Below are positions 2,519 through 11,092 of a stretch of DNA of 34,571 nt, in pieces. The translations under genes were made by a program, and so were the position numbers. Under the pieces are notes generated by a model. The model saw nothing but the letters and a program-made list of their open reading frames with translations, did not search any database and was not told the DNA's origin. Each line of letters begins with the position of its first letter. Position 1 is the stretch's first letter. The stretch comes from Clostridia bacterium (GTDB taxonomy: Bacteria > Bacillota > Clostridia > UBA1212 > UBA1255), in NCBI GenBank assembly GCA_017620915.1, contig JAFZSK010000071.1, forward strand, positions 1 through 34,571. Reading direction: 5' to 3'.

Positions 2519-4915
2519 TCATTTATAAAAGTACGAGTATTCCCCTCCGCCTATCTCCAACTCCAGTTTTGGATTGCCTTCGCGCACTTCGGCATATTCG
2601 ACTCGTATCTGGTGATATCCCGCAGCCAGGCGCAGCGAGGCTTCGGCGGTAACGGTCGCCTCCGCGTCGCGATTGGAGTCAAGCGGACATTCCGCGATCG
2701 TACGGCCGTCAATATACAGTTTCGCGCAATCGTCGCAAGTGAGCTTGAAAGTGTATCTGCCGTCCGCGTCCAACTTCACAAAACCCTCGAGCGCCACGGC
2801 GAAGTTCTTCGATACTCCGTTTATGAAATCCGGGCAAACTGTTTTGGCGATTCCTTTGCGTGCGGACTTTATGCCCTCTATCAGACCGAATTCCGGCAGT
2901 TTGCCGTAGTTCTCGGTGAGTTTGTACGCTTTGCCGAAGAGGCCTTCGTTCAGCGCGTCAAGCTCATCCGCGGTCAATTCCAGCGCTGGCATATAAGCAA
3001 TTGCCGTTCTCCCCTGCGGCGTTTCGCAGATTGTCTCATCGGCGGCGCGGTACGGTATCGACAGGGTCAGCGTGTAATTGTTGCGGCGTTCCGGCGCGCT
3101 GTCGCCGGTGGTGAACCAGGATTCCAGCGAGTAAATGTCCGTTACGTTGTCCAGCCAGTGGAAGTTCAGTGTGAACTTGTCGCCGGTCAGTCCCAGCAGC
3201 GAGCGCGGGATCGAAAGCATCAGTTCGTTGCTTTCCGCACGGTAGCGCACGGCCCCGATCTCCTGCCAGATATCATCTTTGTATGCGCACAGCGTGGTGA
3301 GCGCATTGTCGATGACCTGATAGTTGACCACGTAATCGTACCCTTCCCAGCCGGTGGATTTATCGTTGTCCGCGTCAATAAACAGCAGCATCCAGTTGCG
3401 GCCATCCGCGGGCGATGTGAGCGGCGCGGCGGTGCGGGCGTAAGCGTAGATCATTCCGCCCGACGCGGTCAGCCGGCTTTCCACGATGTCGTTGCGCCCG
3501 GTCTTGTTAATGTATTTGATCTTGCCGGTGGTATCGGTGGAATCACGCTCCGAAGTGTCGCCTTCAAAATCTGTGAACACAGGGGTAATACTCTCCCACT
3601 GACTGAACGCGCCGTCAATATCCACCGTCTGCTTCCCGCTGTTTCCGTCGGGCGGCAATACGCCCTTAAACTTGCGTATTATCGAGCACATCTGGTAGAA
3701 ATAATTGTCCGTGAAACCGCCCTTCATGGGTTCGATATCCCGCGAAAATTCGCGGTTAAACTGATCCACATATCCGGTGCTGGTGGGTTTCGGATCATCT
3801 TGCGTGAAGTTCTGTGCGATCCACTCGTTCCAACGCGTGATAAGCAGCACATCCACGTCCGGCACGGTCTCCATCGCGTCATTGAACGTGCGCTCCAGCA
3901 TTATGCCTTCGCCCATGGTCTGGGTCTCCCAGAACTGGTCGAGATTGCGCTTGACGGATTTATTGGCGCTGCGCCCCGAACCGTAATTGGCAAATCCCGC
4001 CACGCCGATGCCTACACACTCCGCTTTACCGGGATCCTCGGACCAGCCGTAACTCAGGCCGTACAGCATGCTGCCGTCGACCCACCAGTTCTCCCCGTCT
4101 CCGACCCAGGACTTTTTAAAGGTCAGTTTATCTTTATAATTCGGATCATCGTAGATCGGGAACTCGCCGTCGTCCGTGGGCTTGATCAGCGCCAGCGGCT
4201 TGCCGTCCCAGTAAAACCACAGGTCAGAATACTTTTCATCAGTCATAAATATATCGTAGAACTTGCCGGTATCGCCATGGGAAGCCTTAAGATCAGTGCC
4301 GAAGCACCAGGGCACCACATACGGCGTCATCTGACCGGCGGCGCGCAGCTCCAGGCAGGTGTCCAGGAAAACATGCATTGCGTCTTCGTACAGATAGCCG
4401 TTGGTCATATCAATATACAGAAAGTCCACGCCTGCCATCGCAAAGTAGTACATATCCCGTTTGATCTGCCATACATCATCCGCTTTGTGGTAACCGGTCT
4501 CCGGCTCTGACCAGAAGCAAAAGCCCCATTTCGGACCGAAATTCGGATCTTGCGGATCCTGTGCCAGCGCTTTCGTTACGTCTGTCGGCGCGGAAATACT
4601 GGCGGTCCAGAGCGAATAAAACAGACCAACGTACTTCCCTTCTTTGGGCAATCCGGTCTCTTCCGAAGTCGGCAGCGTCCGGCCCAGTGCGTCCGTGGCG
4701 GTCTCGTTGTAGTTAGTGATCAATATCTGCGGCGATTTGCCGTCTTTGGTGAGCACTTGCTTATCCGGGGCGGCGGGCGTAAACGTCATCAGATCCCGGC
4801 TGTTGGTCACGTTACCGCTCTTTTTTTTATTGGCACAGCCCGGCGCGGTCAACATGATCAGTCCGGGAACGATCGCCAGAGCCGCCAGCAGCAATCTTCT
4901 GAATATCGGTCTCAT
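2519..4915 (-). CDS. GH99-like (WbsX-type) lipoprotein with sugar-binding-like and PA14-like C-terminus, 798 aa
   Basis: A predicted exported lipoprotein acting on a glycan at the cell surface. The N-terminus has two basic stretches, a hydrophobic segment and a lipobox-like LTAPGC with Cys27. The first half has a GH99/WbsX-like TIM barrel: YVGLFYSLW, FWSEPETGY, AGVDFLYIDMTN and TRWNEW are shared with the paralogue at 9249. The middle, around the run YDYVVN, resembles a CBM9/DOMON-like beta-sandwich. The last 150 residues (KLDADGRYTFKLTCDD, KLYIDG, GYHQIRVEY) look like a PA14 domain. I chose the ATG at 4913-4915. It is preceded by AGAGG on the minus strand, whereas a TTG 15 nt upstream would overlap that ribosome site. 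A sigma-A-type promoter lies just upstream. Glycosidase activity is inferred from family resemblance, and the catalytic residues were not assigned. Confidence 0.8.
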   Translation of the reverse strand: MRPIFRRLLLAALAIVPGLIMLTAPGCANKKKSGNVTNSRDLMTFTPAAPDKQVLTKDGKSPQILITNYNETATDALGRTLPTSEETGLPKEGKYVGLFYSLWTASISAPTDVTKALAQDPQDPNFGPKWGFCFWSEPETGYHKADDVWQIKRDMYYFAMAGVDFLYIDMTNGYLYEDAMHVFLDTCLELRAAGQMTPYVVPWCFGTDLKASHGDTGKFYDIFMTDEKYSDLWFYWDGKPLALIKPTDDGEFPIYDDPNYKDKLTFKKSWVGDGENWWVDGSMLYGLSYGWSEDPGKAECVGIGVAGFANYGSGRSANKSVKRNLDQFWETQTMGEGIMLERTFNDAMETVPDVDVLLITRWNEWIAQNFTQDDPKPTSTGYVDQFNREFSRDIEPMKGGFTDNYFYQMCSIIRKFKGVLPPDGNSGKQTVDIDGAFSQWESITPVFTDFEGDTSERDSTDTTGKIKYINKTGRNDIVESRLTASGGMIYAYARTAAPLTSPADGRNWMLLFIDADNDKSTGWEGYDYVVNYQVIDNALTTLCAYKDDIWQEIGAVRYRAESNELMLSIPRSLLGLTGDKFTLNFHWLDNVTDIYSLESWFTTGDSAPERRNNYTLTLSIPYRAADETICETPQGRTAIAYMPALELTADELDALNEGLFGKAYKLTENYGKLPEFGLIEGIKSARKGIAKTVCPDFINGVSKNFAVALEGFVKLDADGRYTFKLTCDDCAKLYIDGRTIAECPLDSNRDAEATVTAEASLRLAAGYHQIRVEYAEVREGNPKLELEIGGGEYSYFYK

Positions 4916-4947
4916 AATACTACCTCTCAAATGTACTTTGCGGTACG

Positions 4948-4976
4948 ATTATACATTGACCGGAGCTGATTATCAA
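4948..4976 (-). promoter_or_regulatory. Sigma-A promoter for the GH99-like lipoprotein gene
   Basis: On the minus strand TTGATA (4971-4976), a 17-nt spacer and TATAAT (4948-4953) form a near-consensus housekeeping promoter 33 nt before the chosen start. The TGA stop codon of the upstream gene (4973-4975) lies inside the -35 hexamer. Confidence 0.75.
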
Positions 4977-6556
4977 CTTTCAATTTGCCATTTCTCCTGC
5001 TCAAAATCATATTTCGCAGGAGCTTCTTTTATTTCTCTGCCTTCTTCGTCAAAAAAGCACGCGGTACCGGTGTGATTACTTTCATAGAAAACGTAATAAC
5101 ATGATCGTCTGCTTTTACTGTTAGAGTAATACGTGTTGGTTTCAATATAATATGAAGTGTAATATGCTGTTCGGTTGATCAGATCAATATCGGAACTGTT
5201 CGAAACGGCGTAAGTATGACCGTCGATCCAGTTATCATCATATGTTATCTCAAGTATCGTAAGTTTATCGTTTGATTCGGTCCGGCAATAATAATATTTT
5301 CTACGTCCTTCTGCGTCCAGAATGATATTCGTGTTTTTTGTATCGGAATCTGTTTCTATTTCGGCAATATAAACCGTTTCTCCTTCGGAATTGATTTCCG
5401 TACGATATGATGCGATGTATTCCTGCTTTGCGGTACCCTTACCCCGGGTTCCGTTGATTTTTGCAAGCATCCCTTCCCGGTCCAACATCAAATAACCGTA
5501 TGTTGAACTTATCACTTCCGGTGTTATTATATTGTCTTTGTTGTATGAAACGGTCAGACTTATCCCGCTTTTGTGGATCTCAGTCAAATACAATATGTTG
5601 TTGGCGGTTTCTTGAACAGCATCAGTATTTTTGCTCTGATCAAGCACAAATGAGCCGGAATAATCAGCAAAAAGCAACTCCAGATCGTTATAAACCCTTA
5701 CTCTTTCACTTATCCGGGTGAGCATCCAGTTTTTAAATTCTTCGAATGTCATGTTTTTTGCAATCGATGGGTAATATAATTCGGAATTTTCACAAATACG
5801 TAAGTAATGTTTGTATTCTACTTCCCAATAATCTACAACTGTCGATGTTACGTCATCGGGCTTATTAACGGAATAGAATAATGTGCCACCGATCTGATAA
5901 TATGGCCGCTGATCTTCACAATTAATACTGTGAACACTAAAAAGAAATTCGCCGCTGTCCAGAGGAGTTATACTGAAAGTGAGCTCGACATCCAGCTGAA
6001 TTATGCTGCCTCTTGATATAGTCCTAAGTTCCGGCAGCGGACTATCTATTGTTACAGAAATAGTCACTTTCGCGGTATTATTTTTGTAAATATGAAGTTC
6101 ATCGGGTACATGTTTTAAATAGCTTGCGAGACCCGTTAAGACCGGACTGAGTTCATTACGGTATTCGGCATATATATTCCCACTGAATTGATTTGCATTC
6201 CAGCGCCGCAGCAGTTCCGGCACGAAAAGTTTTACAGTAGTCATTATCTGATTATCTTCAGTTACTGTCGACGGTGTACTGTTTATCGATTCAGGAGCAG
6301 TATTGAGCGGAGTACCATTTAATGATCTTTTGTTATGGTTTATTATGAGGGCCGCAAGTATGCCGAGCGCACAGAACAGAATTACAGAAAAAACAGCAAT
6401 TGCCGCTGTACGTGAACCGCCTGTTTTTTTTACATTGTCAACGTAATATGACGAAGTTTTACCTCCCTGTTTCGTATTTGGACCAAACTCTGCGCATTCG
6501 GCAATAATATCATCGGAGATGTTGTACATATACTTTTTCAGTTTATTGTTTTTCAT
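4973..6556 (-). CDS. Single-pass membrane protein, candidate anti-sigma factor, 527 aa
   Basis: I do not recognise a family. The protein has a cytoplasmic N-terminus of about 50 residues (MKNNKLKKYM, then YNISDDIIAECAEF), one membrane span at about residues 50-72, and a long C-terminal region expected outside the cell. That region is rich in Tyr, Ser, Thr and Asn. The start overlaps the stop of the ECF sigma gene by 4 bp (ATGA), so the two are translationally coupled. This arrangement and topology are typical of membrane-anchored anti-sigma factors, but no zinc-binding HxxxCxxC motif is seen, so the role is inferred from context. The gene is noticeably more AT-rich than its neighbours, with many AAT, ATA and TAT codons, suggesting relaxed selection or separate acquisition. 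Its last codons (EKWQIES) coincide with a short ATTTGCC-like sequence related to the dispersed repeat. Confidence 0.7.
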   Translation of the reverse strand: MKNNKLKKYMYNISDDIIAECAEFGPNTKQGGKTSSYYVDNVKKTGGSRTAAIAVFSVILFCALGILAALIINHNKRSLNGTPLNTAPESINSTPSTVTEDNQIMTTVKLFVPELLRRWNANQFSGNIYAEYRNELSPVLTGLASYLKHVPDELHIYKNNTAKVTISVTIDSPLPELRTISRGSIIQLDVELTFSITPLDSGEFLFSVHSINCEDQRPYYQIGGTLFYSVNKPDDVTSTVVDYWEVEYKHYLRICENSELYYPSIAKNMTFEEFKNWMLTRISERVRVYNDLELLFADYSGSFVLDQSKNTDAVQETANNILYLTEIHKSGISLTVSYNKDNIITPEVISSTYGYLMLDREGMLAKINGTRGKGTAKQEYIASYRTEINSEGETVYIAEIETDSDTKNTNIILDAEGRRKYYYCRTESNDKLTILEITYDDNWIDGHTYAVSNSSDIDLINRTAYYTSYYIETNTYYSNSKSRRSCYYVFYESNHTGTACFFDEEGREIKEAPAKYDFEQEKWQIES

Positions 6557-7113
6557 ACCTCTATCCCCTCTTTCAAAAGTCGCGCTTTGAGTGCTTTGCG
6601 CATTCGGAAAAGGTCAGACATGACAGTTCCGGCGGAGGTACCAAGCTTAGCGGAGATCTCTTTGATGCTGGCGCCGTAATAGTAGCGGGCAACAAAAATC
6701 TTGCGGCGTTCCGGCGTCAATCCGTGAAGAAATTCGTTGATCACCGCCCCTGCCAGGAGCGCTTCGGCTTCTGCCTGCGGATCACACTGCGCTGACACGA
6801 GAACTTCTTCAGAGTCAAGCGGCACTGAATCATCCGGCGAGAGCCGTTTTTGACGCCGGAGTTCCTTGTAGCGGTTGATCGCTGTATTGCGTACGATCGT
6901 CGAAAGATATTCTCTCAACTTTTCCGGCTCATATTCCAGCGCAGCGTTCCAGAAACGTAAAAGAGCATCGTTTACGCACTCTTCCGCTTCTTCGGCATCA
7001 CCCAGCACGTTGAAGGCAACAGTTCGACAGTATGTGCCATATTTGACTGCCAGTTCGTTCAGTGCGTTTTCATCGTGTGCCCGTATCTTCGACAGGATCT
7101 CATCATCGGACAA
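6553..7113 (-). CDS. RNA polymerase sigma factor, sigma-70 family, ECF type, 186 aa
   Basis: An extracytoplasmic-function sigma factor expected to direct RNA polymerase to a small set of promoters. Region 2 spans about residues 8-80 (LGDAEEAEECVNDALLRFWN, then LREYLSTIVRNTAINRYKELRR). Region 4 spans about 125-180, with LTPERRKIFVARYYYGASIKEIS and the helix-turn-helix LGTSAGTVMSDLFRMRKAL. The length is normal for ECF factors. The start is TTG at 7111-7113. An in-frame TGA lies two codons upstream, a strong GGGAGG sits 7 nt before it, and no ATG lies nearby downstream. It is first in a two-gene unit with the membrane protein at 4973, which it overlaps by 4 bp. A promoter with TATAAT lies upstream. 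Confidence 0.95.
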   Translation of the reverse strand: MSDDEILSKIRAHDENALNELAVKYGTYCRTVAFNVLGDAEEAEECVNDALLRFWNAALEYEPEKLREYLSTIVRNTAINRYKELRRQKRLSPDDSVPLDSEEVLVSAQCDPQAEAEALLAGAVINEFLHGLTPERRKIFVARYYYGASIKEISAKLGTSAGTVMSDLFRMRKALKARLLKEGIEV

Positions 7114-7169: not shown

Positions 7170-7198
7170 ATTATACTTTCAATCGCGAACAATTGCAA
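7170..7198 (-). promoter_or_regulatory. Sigma-A promoter for the ECF sigma operon
   Basis: Minus-strand TTGCAA (7193-7198), a 17-nt spacer and TATAAT (7170-7175). The -35 hexamer is self-complementary and lies in the 10-bp palindrome AATTGCAATT (7191-7200). It is also the -35 of the plus-strand promoter facing the DUF2264 gene. Confidence 0.7.
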
Positions 7199-7221
7199 TT
7201 TGAACTGATGTGAGTTATTAT
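7193..7221 (+). promoter_or_regulatory. Probable promoter for the DUF2264 gene
   Basis: Plus-strand TTGCAA (7193-7198), a 17-nt spacer (7199-7215) and TATTAT (7216-7221), 29 nt before the ATG at 7251. It shares its -35 hexamer with the divergent ECF promoter. Confidence 0.6.
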
Positions 7222-7250: not shown

Positions 7251-8441
7251 ATGAATACCGGCCTTGAAGAACGTAAATACTGGGTGGATACCCTGATAAA
7301 GATCATCTCCCCCGTGCTCACCTGCGGCGCGGCGCGCGAATTAAGGCAGCGCATGCCTAAATATAACGCGGCGCTGTGGGACCGGGCGCTGAAAGATAAA
7401 TACGCGTACCTGGAAGCCGTAGGACGCACGCTGTGCGGTGCTTCGCCGTGGCTGGAAACGCCGCAGCTTGACCCTGAAGAAGAGGCCAAGCGCCGGATTT
7501 ATGCGGAAATGGCGCGAAAGACCATTGACGCCATCACCGATCCCGCATCACCGGATAAAGCCGAGTTCTATGTTTCCGTTGCCGACAACGGCGGCAATCC
7601 CTACAGCCAGGCGCTGGTGGATGCCGCGTTTCTGGCGCATGCCATTGTCCGCGCCAAGACCGAGCTGTTTGATAAACTGGAGCCCCGCGTCAAACGCAAT
7701 CTGATAACCTGCCTTAAGGAAACCCGCGGCATCCGGCCCGCGCACAACAACTGGATGCTGTTCTCCGGCATGGTGGAAGCGGCGCTGTATCTGCTGGGCG
7801 AAACGCCGGATCTGCTGCGCGTGGACGCGTGTCTGTTCCAGCATGAGCAGTGGTATAAGGGCGACGGCGTCTATGGCGACGGAGCGGCATTTCACTGGGA
7901 TTATTACAACAGCTACGTGATCCAGCCGATGTTTGTGGACATCTGCCGCGTGTTCGCAGATGAGTTTCCGGAGGGCGGTTACGGACAAAAGCGCTTAAAT
8001 ACTGCTCTTGCCCGCGCGGCTCGCTACGCTGTACAGCAGGAGCGGCTGATCGCCCCGGACGGCTCGTTCCCGGTGATCGGACGGTCAATAACCTACCGTA
8101 CAGGCGCTTTCCAGCTGCTTGCGCAGTCAGTGCTGCAAGGATTCGTACCGGACAGCATAAATAAAGGCGGTATCCGCACCGCACTTACAAAAGTAATACA
8201 TCGCTGTTTTGATTCTGCGGCCAATTTCGATACCGACGGCTGGCTCAAGATCGGACTGTGCGGCGATCAGCCGTCCTTAGGCGAGCTGTATATCTGCACA
8301 GGCAGTCTGTATCTTTGCACGGCCGGATTTCTGCCGCTGGGCCTCCCCGCGGACAACGACTTCTGGACCTGTCCCCCCGCGCCCCACACTTCGGTGCGCG
8401 TCTGGGCGGGAGAGGATCTTCCGGCGGACCACTCGATCTGA
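7251..8441 (+). CDS. DUF2264 domain-containing protein, 396 aa
   Basis: A DUF2264 family protein, a group with a predicted (alpha/alpha) barrel found in carbohydrate-degrading loci of Bacillota and Bacteroidota. The biochemical role is not established. Family-like segments include YWVDTLIKIISPVL near the N-terminus, RPAHNNWMLFSGMVEAALYLLGE, DGVYGDGAAFHWDYYNSYVIQPM, and the C-terminal WTCPPAPHTSVRVWAGEDLPADH. The N-terminal start at ATG 7251 has a strong GGAGGG site 6 nt away. It is cytoplasmic, with no signal peptide. It is the only plus-strand gene in the interior of the window, reads away from the ECF sigma gene, and ends 13 bp from the convergent PHP gene. Its place beside GH99-like genes suggests a shared glycan-related role. 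Confidence 0.85.
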   Translation: MNTGLEERKYWVDTLIKIISPVLTCGAARELRQRMPKYNAALWDRALKDKYAYLEAVGRTLCGASPWLETPQLDPEEEAKRRIYAEMARKTIDAITDPASPDKAEFYVSVADNGGNPYSQALVDAAFLAHAIVRAKTELFDKLEPRVKRNLITCLKETRGIRPAHNNWMLFSGMVEAALYLLGETPDLLRVDACLFQHEQWYKGDGVYGDGAAFHWDYYNSYVIQPMFVDICRVFADEFPEGGYGQKRLNTALARAARYAVQQERLIAPDGSFPVIGRSITYRTGAFQLLAQSVLQGFVPDSINKGGIRTALTKVIHRCFDSAANFDTDGWLKIGLCGDQPSLGELYICTGSLYLCTAGFLPLGLPADNDFWTCPPAPHTSVRVWAGEDLPADHSI

Positions 8442-8454
8442 GAATAAAAATGAT

Positions 8455-9252
8455 TCAGACGATCTTCTCGTAAATAGGCTGCATATTGCGGTAGTGCGCG
8501 ATATAGTCGAAACCGCAGTCTTTTATGACATTTTTAAAGAAATCGAACCGTTTGCCGATCCGTTCGTAGCGGTGTGCGTCCGAGCCCAGGACAACGGTCT
8601 CGCCGCCGCGGGCTTTGTATTGACGCAGCACCTCCGCGTCCATGGTCGTCTTGTCGTAGGAGCGCGTATTGACTTCGAACGCCAGTCCGTACGTTATCAT
8701 CAGTTCCAGCAGCGTATCGAATTCATCCTGAAACTCCCGGTAGTACATGGCGTTGTCTTCGTAATCCGCGTACCGGATCAGATAGTCGAAATGCCCTACC
8801 GAGTTATAGTCGTGGTAGAGTTCGATGTTGCGTATCATCTCCCGGAGATAGCGGCGGTACGCGCTGTGCTTTTCGGGCTCGATCCGGAAATATGTGCGGT
8901 CGTACGGGTCGTAGCGGCTGACCAGATGGGTGGAACCGATCTTGTAATCGAACTTGTATCCGGAAAGACGCCGGATGTTCTCCTCTACTACATGGGGCTG
9001 CAATCCCACTTCCACGGCGCTGACGATATCCAGCCTGCCGGCGTATTTATCCCGCACTTCTTCGAACCGGTAAAGATAATCGCCGAAATCGTAATACACG
9101 TCGCTGCCGTCGGAATTGTAGTTCACGTCCAGGTGATCGGTGAACGCGATGCCGGAAAGGCCGAGCGCGAGCGCGCGGTCCGCGGCGCCTTCCATCTCCA
9201 TCGAACTGTCGAAGGAAAAGCGCGAATGGGTATGCATGTCGTACAGGATCAT
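8455..9252 (-). CDS. PHP-domain phosphatase, histidinol-phosphatase (HisJ)-like, 265 aa
   Basis: A metal-dependent phosphoesterase of the PHP superfamily, closest in layout to HisJ-type histidinol-phosphatases, which dephosphorylate L-histidinol phosphate. Metal-binding motifs are visible: DMHTHSRFSFDSS (residues 5-17), AFTDHLD (about 37-43), an acidic site in SAVEVGL, GSTHL, SVGHFDYL and GSDAHRYE. The length matches HisJ. No other histidine biosynthesis gene lies nearby, so a different phosphate ester substrate is possible. The ATG overlaps the stop of the upstream GH99-like gene by 4 bp (ATGA), showing translational coupling and suggesting a linked role. It is the last gene of the tyrS-led unit and converges on the DUF2264 gene. 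Confidence 0.85.
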   Translation of the reverse strand: MILYDMHTHSRFSFDSSMEMEGAADRALALGLSGIAFTDHLDVNYNSDGSDVYYDFGDYLYRFEEVRDKYAGRLDIVSAVEVGLQPHVVEENIRRLSGYKFDYKIGSTHLVSRYDPYDRTYFRIEPEKHSAYRRYLREMIRNIELYHDYNSVGHFDYLIRYADYEDNAMYYREFQDEFDTLLELMITYGLAFEVNTRSYDKTTMDAEVLRQYKARGGETVVLGSDAHRYERIGKRFDFFKNVIKDCGFDYIAHYRNMQPIYEKIV

Positions 9253-11054
9253 TTGTTGTCCTCGCTAAGAATGCAGCGGTAGCAGAAGCGGCCGTCGGGC
9301 GCGGTGTCGCCCCGGTCGTAGAATTTCATGATGTCGCCGTCGTCAACGGAATTGTCTGCCCACTTGAAATCGAACGTGTTCTTCACACGCACGAGCGCGC
9401 GGGGCACTTTAAGTTCCAGAATATTGTCCGTCACCCGGAGCACGGCCTCGCCGATCTGTTCGAAGCGCCATTCGTTGTCCACCGGCACTTCGATGGACGC
9501 GTTGCCGCCGCTCTGATGACGGTTGATTATGTAGTCGAACCCGTACCAGCCGTTGCGCAGATTGCAGTCGGAGTTGATGAAGAGGTTCATCCAGTTGTCG
9601 CCGGATGGTGCGGTGATCGTATCGCGGCAGCGGCAGTAAAAATACAGATACTGACGGTCCGCGCAGACTTTCATGGCGACCAGGTCGTTGCGGCCGGAAC
9701 TGTTTACGTAGCGCAGATTCCCGCCGGAACCGGGCCAGTCGCGTTTGTATGTATCGAACGGCGCGTCGCGGTATTCCGGACCTACGCAGTCCCATTCCGA
9801 GGGATCGCCGTCGTCAATCTGCATCTTCACACAGCCGTACACCGGCGTTCCGCGTTCCGCGCCTTTGTAGCGGCGGACAACGTCCACCAGCTGGCAGTAA
9901 TAATTGTCGTTGAACAGTCCTTTGACCGGTTCCAGATCGCGGCTGAATTCGCCGTTGAAGTTGTCAACAAAATAACAGTCGTTATACCCGTCCCCGGGCA
10001 CTACTTTGTAGCTGTTGGCAATAGTCTGGCCATTTGCGGGATTTGATCCGTTCTTCCAGCTGCCCCAGCGCCCCGCGGTCCATTCGTTCCAGCCGGTGAT
10101 CAGCATGAGCGGCGGATCGCATTCCAGCGCGCGCTCGGCCTGTTCTTTAAACGCGCGGCCGTCTCCGGCGCTCGTTTCAGAAATGCCGAAGCCCAGGTCG
10201 CCGGGCGTTTCGTTGTCCGGCTGCCGGCCGCCGGAATAACTGCGTCCGGCGTTGGTGCCGTAGCTGCCGTTGACCCAGAAACCGCACATCACGATCATCT
10301 GCTCGATATTGCCCGCGCCGTCGCGCCCCGGCTCCTGCGGATACATATCCGCCCAGGGCCAGCAGTTTTTGCCGCCGGCGTGAGTGTACCACTCCCCCGC
10401 CGGACCTTTGGTATATGCCCAGCTGTAGCGGATCGTGAAGAAATCGCGCACGTGGTCCGGCAGTTTCGGCACATCTGCTTCGGGCATCAGAATGAGCGGC
10501 TTGCCGTCGTGATATACCCACATATCCGAATAACGCCCGGGCCCGTACAGATCGTCGTACAGTTTCATAACGGTCTCCGCGGCCTGAGTGTTGGTGATGA
10601 ACATCACGTCCGGCGTGGGACTGCCTTCGGCGCGCATCTCGCTCCAGACGCGGAAGATCATGTTGTAGGTCTCGGGGTACGTGAGCGTGTTGGTGACATC
10701 CAGAAAAATAAAGTCGATGCCGGCTTCAGTCAGCATCGCGGCGTGCTTCCGCAATACCCACGGATCGTCTGAGCGGTAATAGCCGAAGTACGGTTCCGCC
10801 CAGTACTGCAGATACCCCATGGGCACCGTGAGCGAATCCGCCTTTACTTTTTCGATGCCGCCTTCATAGTATGAGCGCGTATGGTCGATCACCGGCTGCT
10901 CCGGCCGGTGGTCGTGCCATATGAAATAGAAAATACCGACCTTACGGTCGCGCGTTCCGGGGTATTTTGTAGGGTCAATGATCCGGCCCAGCCCGTCGGT
11001 ACACACCCATGAAGAACTGCCGAGGTCAATATACTCGCGCTTATCCTCGTTCAT
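9249..11054 (-). CDS. GH99-like (WbsX-type) protein without signal peptide, 601 aa
   Basis: A paralogue of the lipoprotein at 2519-4915. Matching segments are TDGLGR, KVGIFYFIWH, YWAEPYFGYYRSDDPW, AGIDFIFLDVTN, YSDMWVYHDGKPLIL, TGWNEW and FNGEFSRDLEPVKG. The last 200 residues match the same CBM9/DOMON-like module (RYVNSSGRNDL, YFYCRC, WMNLFINSD, GFDYIIN). It lacks both the lipoprotein signal and the PA14-like tail. I chose the ATG at 11052-11054, because GGAGGAG lies 8 nt before it. A GTG 9 nt upstream would be too close to that site. It follows tyrS by 38 bp and overlaps the PHP gene. Without an export signal it should be intracellular, which is odd for a polysaccharide-type module. It may act on imported oligosaccharides. 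Activity is not proven. Confidence 0.8.
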   Translation of the reverse strand: MNEDKREYIDLGSSSWVCTDGLGRIIDPTKYPGTRDRKVGIFYFIWHDHRPEQPVIDHTRSYYEGGIEKVKADSLTVPMGYLQYWAEPYFGYYRSDDPWVLRKHAAMLTEAGIDFIFLDVTNTLTYPETYNMIFRVWSEMRAEGSPTPDVMFITNTQAAETVMKLYDDLYGPGRYSDMWVYHDGKPLILMPEADVPKLPDHVRDFFTIRYSWAYTKGPAGEWYTHAGGKNCWPWADMYPQEPGRDGAGNIEQMIVMCGFWVNGSYGTNAGRSYSGGRQPDNETPGDLGFGISETSAGDGRAFKEQAERALECDPPLMLITGWNEWTAGRWGSWKNGSNPANGQTIANSYKVVPGDGYNDCYFVDNFNGEFSRDLEPVKGLFNDNYYCQLVDVVRRYKGAERGTPVYGCVKMQIDDGDPSEWDCVGPEYRDAPFDTYKRDWPGSGGNLRYVNSSGRNDLVAMKVCADRQYLYFYCRCRDTITAPSGDNWMNLFINSDCNLRNGWYGFDYIINRHQSGGNASIEVPVDNEWRFEQIGEAVLRVTDNILELKVPRALVRVKNTFDFKWADNSVDDGDIMKFYDRGDTAPDGRFCYRCILSEDNK

Positions 11055-11092
11055 ACTACACACTCCTCCGGCGGCCGCGGCGGGACGCAGAT

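Follow-up and report, generated by a model that had tools for sequence, protein, structure and literature searches.

A candidate tandem promoter of an ECF sigma factor operon, and a palindromic -35 hexamer that may also serve a divergent DUF2264 gene, in a Clostridia bacterium

Bidirectional promoters in Escherichia coli and other prokaryotes use a pseudo-symmetric core element in both directions, and RNA polymerase occupies it in one orientation at a time. The common element there is the -10 and the divergent starts are typically 10, 18 or 23 bp apart (PMC12825309). The same study reports that the basal activity of all five tested bidirectional promoters of E. coli was too low for polymerases to compete, and that promoters sharing a -10 compete only once one side has been strongly activated (PMC12825309). 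The ECF sigma factors form a second relevant group, and their classical signature comprises a -35 with AA(C), a -10 with CGT, autoregulation and a co-transcribed anti-sigma factor (PMC8103513). Divergent promoters that overlap physically are also described for the plasmid pLS20, where a known regulator and DNA looping operate (PMC4207663). A literature search for a common or palindromic -35 returned overlapping divergent promoters only, and none of the kind sought.

The locus described here lies in a window of 34,571 nucleotides (the whole stretch of DNA that was analysed), which is contig 94 of a genome of 2.57 Mb in 121 contigs. Its features are as follows.

4973-6556, minus strand: putative anti-sigma gene, 527 aa, one TM segment near residue 53
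6553-7113, minus strand: ECF sigma factor gene, 186 aa, TTG start, Pfam Sigma70_r2 and Sigma70_r4_2, sigma70-ECF TIGR02937
7144-7125, minus strand: candidate ECF-type -10 and start region, GTTGTCCATACTGTTGAAGG, with GTC at 7141-7139
7165-7161, minus strand: candidate ECF-type -35, TGCAA, at offset -21 from the -10 block, exactly as in the ECF paralogues
7175-7170, minus strand: TATAAT, sigma-A-like -10 for the ECF operon, spacer 17
7191-7200: AATTGCAATT, a perfect 10-bp palindrome enclosing TTGCAA
7193-7198, both strands: TTGCAA, palindromic -35 hexamer at the centre of AATTGCAATT
7216-7221, plus strand: TATTAT, sigma-A-like -10 for the DUF2264 gene, spacer 17
7251-8441, plus strand: DUF2264 gene, 396 aa, Pfam PF10022, E 2.5e-104

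The preliminary description of this DNA was accurate about the sequence itself: TTGCAA at 7193-7198 is self-complementary, with TATAAT on the minus and TATTAT on the plus strand 17 nt to either side, so that hexamers at the 16-18 nt spacing are present in both directions. Its naming of the neighbours, an ECF sigma gene (minus) and a DUF2264 gene (plus), was borne out by Pfam. Like the bidirectional promoters of E. coli, the locus has a symmetric core element that could be used both ways, one orientation at a time; in contrast to those, its common element is the -35, and the predicted starts, at about 7163 (minus) and about 7228 (plus, with a leader of about 23 nt for DUF2264), would be some 65 bp apart (PMC12825309). 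A distance of 40 bp separates the two -10 elements (7175 to 7216), which places the locus outside the definition given there, namely divergent starts flanking or inside a common -10 (PMC12825309). With pLS20 it has in common the physical overlap of divergent promoters and differs in that no regulator or DNA looping was identified in the window (PMC4207663). The likeness to autoregulated ECF operons includes a sigma2/sigma4 gene, a co-oriented overlapping one-TM gene and, in front, an ECF-type promoter with AA in the -35 and GTC in the -10 (PMC8103513). The group to which the window belongs departs from those operons in having TG[GC]AA(c/t), not plain AAC, as its -35 and a conserved block that extends through GTGAAGG (PMC8103513).

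The best-supported object at this locus is the tandem promoter of the ECF and putative anti-sigma operon, a member of a large local family. Its downstream half is an ECF-type promoter that follows the sigma-A-like one and precedes the ECF gene, and the preliminary description missed it. Matches to the ECF protein number 16 in this genome and occur in 52 of 58 relatives, and 72 ECF upstream regions, 67 of them non-redundant, were compared. After expectation-maximisation their common block had the consensus gtcGTCTATATaaGTGAAgG, from a seed picked by eye after viewing a list of upstream regions that included the window; it was present at p<0.01 against shuffles, which preserve base composition only, in 41 of the 67 regions (the window's own among them) and absent at that level from the other 26. 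Held out of training, the window's own -10 block has p 0.0096 when taken alone and shows several departures from the consensus. The -35 block TG[GC]AA, which had played no part in finding the motif, stood at offset -21 with at least 4 of 5 bases in 23 of 48 upstream regions, against 0-3 at 15 other offsets (49 regions scored at least 9.5, and 48 of these were long enough). In a two-block model trained on 37 regions with the window held out, the window's site reached 18.5 bits and ranked first of 69,056 window positions, the next scoring 13.7. Across 382 kb of this genome, with 763,626 positions, only 3 scored as high, all of them upstream of ECF paralogues that were themselves in the training set. 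The strength of the window's ECF-type site comes from the addition of the -35 to the -10 block. In front of the ECF gene this promoter takes the form of a lineage variant, TGCAA / TTGTC, with a predicted start at about 7131 (minus) and a leader of about 18 nt. It is sequence statistics that establish the motifs, their enrichment and, as set out below, the poor conservation of the divergent layout.

The conserved ECF block continues past the -10 into GTGAAGG, the expected first transcribed bases, with T at position 14 in 95% and G at position 15 in 87% of the sites (n=38). ECF promoters do not usually have a conserved start region of this sort beyond the -10.

A regulon search with the motif, allowing at most 3 mismatches, gave 11 places against 5 for the reversed control. 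Most of the top sites outside ECF upstream regions in the 382-kb sample were not in promoter-like places, so no regulon is claimed. On the plus strand before DUF2264 the best score of the two-block model was below zero; DUF2264 is accordingly not an obvious target of the ECF factor.

The upstream half of the tandem is of the housekeeping type, and its -35 belongs to the usage of this lineage. The pattern TTGCAA-N16-18-TATNNT has 37 occurrences genome-wide (17 on one strand and 20 on the other), the reversed pattern 11, and TTGCAA is paired with a -10 in 6.7% of cases per orientation against 1.2% in the reversed control. Among hexamers 16-18 nt before TATAAT in a 417-kb genome sample, TTGACA comes first with 9 and TTGCAA second with 7, the reversed sequence giving 0 for both; TTGCAA is not over-represented by itself in that sample (142 against 168 reversed). 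At gapA, which was found in 6 of the 7 genus genomes (G003 had no match), TTGCAAT, 17 nt and TATAAT are kept in all five readable upstream regions with spacer sequences that differ between most of them; the sixth region (L184) was missed by the search pattern. Judged by sequence, this Clostridia-like lineage uses TTGCAA as a genuine housekeeping -35, and the data support the view that both promoter halves of the window look like real sigma-A promoters of the lineage.

The close spacing of the two promoter types is not confined to the window. Relative to the ECF block, sigma-A-like -10 elements are commonest at -33 to -26, with 29 per 1000 positions against 1-15 in other bins, a peak that rests on 11 places in few genes. 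Paralogue C70 in the same genome has TTGCAA-17-TATAAT at offset -32, and the window has it at -31. For 30 ECF genes the downstream DNA was long enough to examine; each of the 30 is followed by a one-TM gene, and in 27 the two genes overlap by 4 nt, as they do in the window. The ECF protein consists of sigma2 and sigma4 domains only. The 527-aa protein had no Pfam or NCBIfam family match, and its position together with its one TM segment would make it a putative anti-sigma factor. The one-TM proteins encoded after the ECF paralogues share a related N-terminus and, in the stretches read, differ greatly in length (151-923 aa).

Taken together, the locus is probably an ECF/anti-sigma operon under autoregulation that also has a basal sigma-A promoter, and the -35 of this promoter may serve DUF2264 as well. 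In this model the minus strand would carry the promoter region of the operon, with two promoters in tight tandem. The upstream housekeeping promoter, TTGCAA-17-TATAAT (7198-7170), would give basal transcription, and the ECF-type promoter just downstream (TGCAA at 7165-7161, GTC at 7141-7139) would allow the released sigma factor to amplify its own operon. The predicted basal start (about 7163) falls inside the ECF -35, and sigma-A and ECF polymerases would therefore compete there. Polymerases usually cover about -55 to +20. With such footprints, overlap between the ECF complex and the sigma-A complex on the plus strand would be limited to their upstream ends; the tighter competition would be that of the sigma-A and ECF polymerases for one operon. 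On the plus strand, DUF2264 would have a sigma-A-like promoter whose -35 may be the same TTGCAA. We consider the more useful object to be the ECF/one-TM operons, an expanded family in gut-type Clostridia relatives, with their readable common autoregulatory promoter, which, if confirmed, would make it possible to predict the targets of a group of sigma factors without experimental work here.

The alternative that survives best takes only one of the two sigma-A directions as real. It holds that TTGCAA-17-TATAAT serves the ECF operon, that TATTAT on the plus strand is a chance match and that DUF2264 has its transcription start elsewhere or is barely transcribed, and we regard it as rather unlikely, though of all the alternatives it deserves the most weight. 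The plus-strand site matches 5 of 6 positions in the -10 and 4 of 6 in the -35 (9 of 12 in all), and 28 sites of at least that score occur in 18 kb against 14.7 in shuffled sequence. The gene is also foreign to most of the family. DUF2264 matches were found in 4 of 58 genomes, the window's own counted; in one (G005) the relative sits within another same-strand gene run, the match in another (G055) is distant (28%), and in G002 only fragments containing stops match. The closest relatives, with 64-69% identity, come from MAGs of Clostridia and Ruminococcus, and one relative (L141) has its own TTGACA-type promoter. Against a chance match, no other promoter-like site on the plus strand of the gap combines a score as high as that of the TATTAT site, a direction away from the ECF gene and a suitable distance to the start of DUF2264. 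The fragments in G002 (G002:C107:66849-67177; L043, L045 and L046) are on a contig that also carries ECF genes at 57688-58224 and 63386-63931, and they suggest gene loss in the sister species.

The wider comparison bears on the layout as a whole. Among 38 DUF2264 loci from other species, around each of which DNA was fetched (several with little upstream), none had a match to the ECF protein nearby. The intergenic DNA of the window had no counterpart in the other genus genomes (7 compared, own included), the best other matches being the coding part of the ECF gene. The arrangement of ECF and DUF2264 genes as such is not conserved, and within the collections searched the two are neighbours only in this species. 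The preliminary description had proposed looking for the layout in relatives and would have given up its reading if the palindrome were not kept there; as far as this can be tested, since the intergenic region is missing from relatives, the comparison goes against it, with DUF2264 mostly absent and never elsewhere beside an ECF gene.

What had been proposed for the shared -35 was a built-in directional switch, in which the palindrome would force sigma-A polymerase to serve either the ECF operon or DUF2264, this reciprocity being the regulatory point. The idea that polymerase would bind here in one direction at a time is sterically sound, as two polymerases should not be able to sit on one -35, nor two sigma region 4 domains to occupy it simultaneously. 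The geometry is exact, at 17 nt both ways, and at E. coli bidirectional promoters one direction, when strongly activated, can repress the opposite one (PMC12825309). The frequency of the layout speaks against a special role. This genome has 275 TTGCAA sites and 37 one-sided matches, which predicts 1.24 two-sided sites where 1 is observed; these expected numbers assume that the two sides of each TTGCAA are independent, and since promoter-like sites cluster in intergenic DNA, the expectation would be still higher. In 31 genomes of the order, 31 two-sided sites were observed against 27.4 expected (P 0.27), 3 of the 31 with exact TATAAT on both sides and 8, the window's included, in gaps between divergent open frames as called by a crude gene picker. 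The 7 genus genomes lean towards an excess (10 against 5.5 expected, P 0.055), which gives the switch some support. The shared two-sided layout is thus not above chance in this genome and in the order, with a mild excess in the genus. Because TTGCAA is an ordinary -35 in the lineage and is palindromic, chance should produce about one such site in each genome, and the lineage's own -35 usage, once known, turns a striking symmetric layout into an expected coincidence. Moreover, the ECF operon has its own ECF-type promoter (7165-7125) downstream, with a -35 that lies 28 nt from TTGCAA, and its induced transcription need not use the common -35. The E. coli bidirectional promoters tested were at basal level too weak to compete (PMC12825309). 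An either/or switch is improbable on account of the chance frequency, the lack of conservation in relatives and the second, better-supported ECF promoter, and the claim of a built-in switch between ECF operon and DUF2264 is left with little behind it.

The perfect 10-bp palindrome AATTGCAATT (7191-7200) could instead bind a dimeric repressor or activator as its operator, in which case the match to two -35 positions would be a by-product. We find this reading as doubtful as the switch. Beyond the palindrome itself, it is favoured by the recurrence of the 15 nt TTGCAATTGTTCGCG in the promoter of gapA in this genome; across the genus, however, gapA keeps only TTGCAAT and TATAAT and not the rest of the 15-mer, the 15-mer with 2 mismatches is no commoner than its reversed control (47 against 60), and a -35 role accounts for the general excess of TTGCAA 16-18 nt from TATAAT. 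An operator role for the 15-mer common to the window and gapA was rejected, as the 15-mer is not kept across the genus. Least probable of all, and in our view very improbable, is that, with a palindrome as the commonest alternative -35 of the order, back-to-back promoters sharing it form a class used for regulation, here as a three-way contest of sigma-A, the opposite sigma-A and an ECF polymerase whose -35 overlaps the basal start, such that ECF activation would relieve DUF2264 from basal competition. The 31 two-sided sites, the 8 in divergent gaps, the 3 with TATAAT on either side and the mild excess in the genus are compatible with it.

Two minor observations concern the surroundings. The 15-mer TTGCAATTGTTCGCG occurs exactly twice in the genome, in the window at 7184-7198 (minus) and at the gapA promoter (L003, G000:C12:18572-18586). 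The proteins of 2519-4930 (minus) and 9249-11063 (minus), which flank the ECF/DUF2264 pair, are alike over long stretches by eye, and that of 2519-4930 (minus) carries a PA14 domain.
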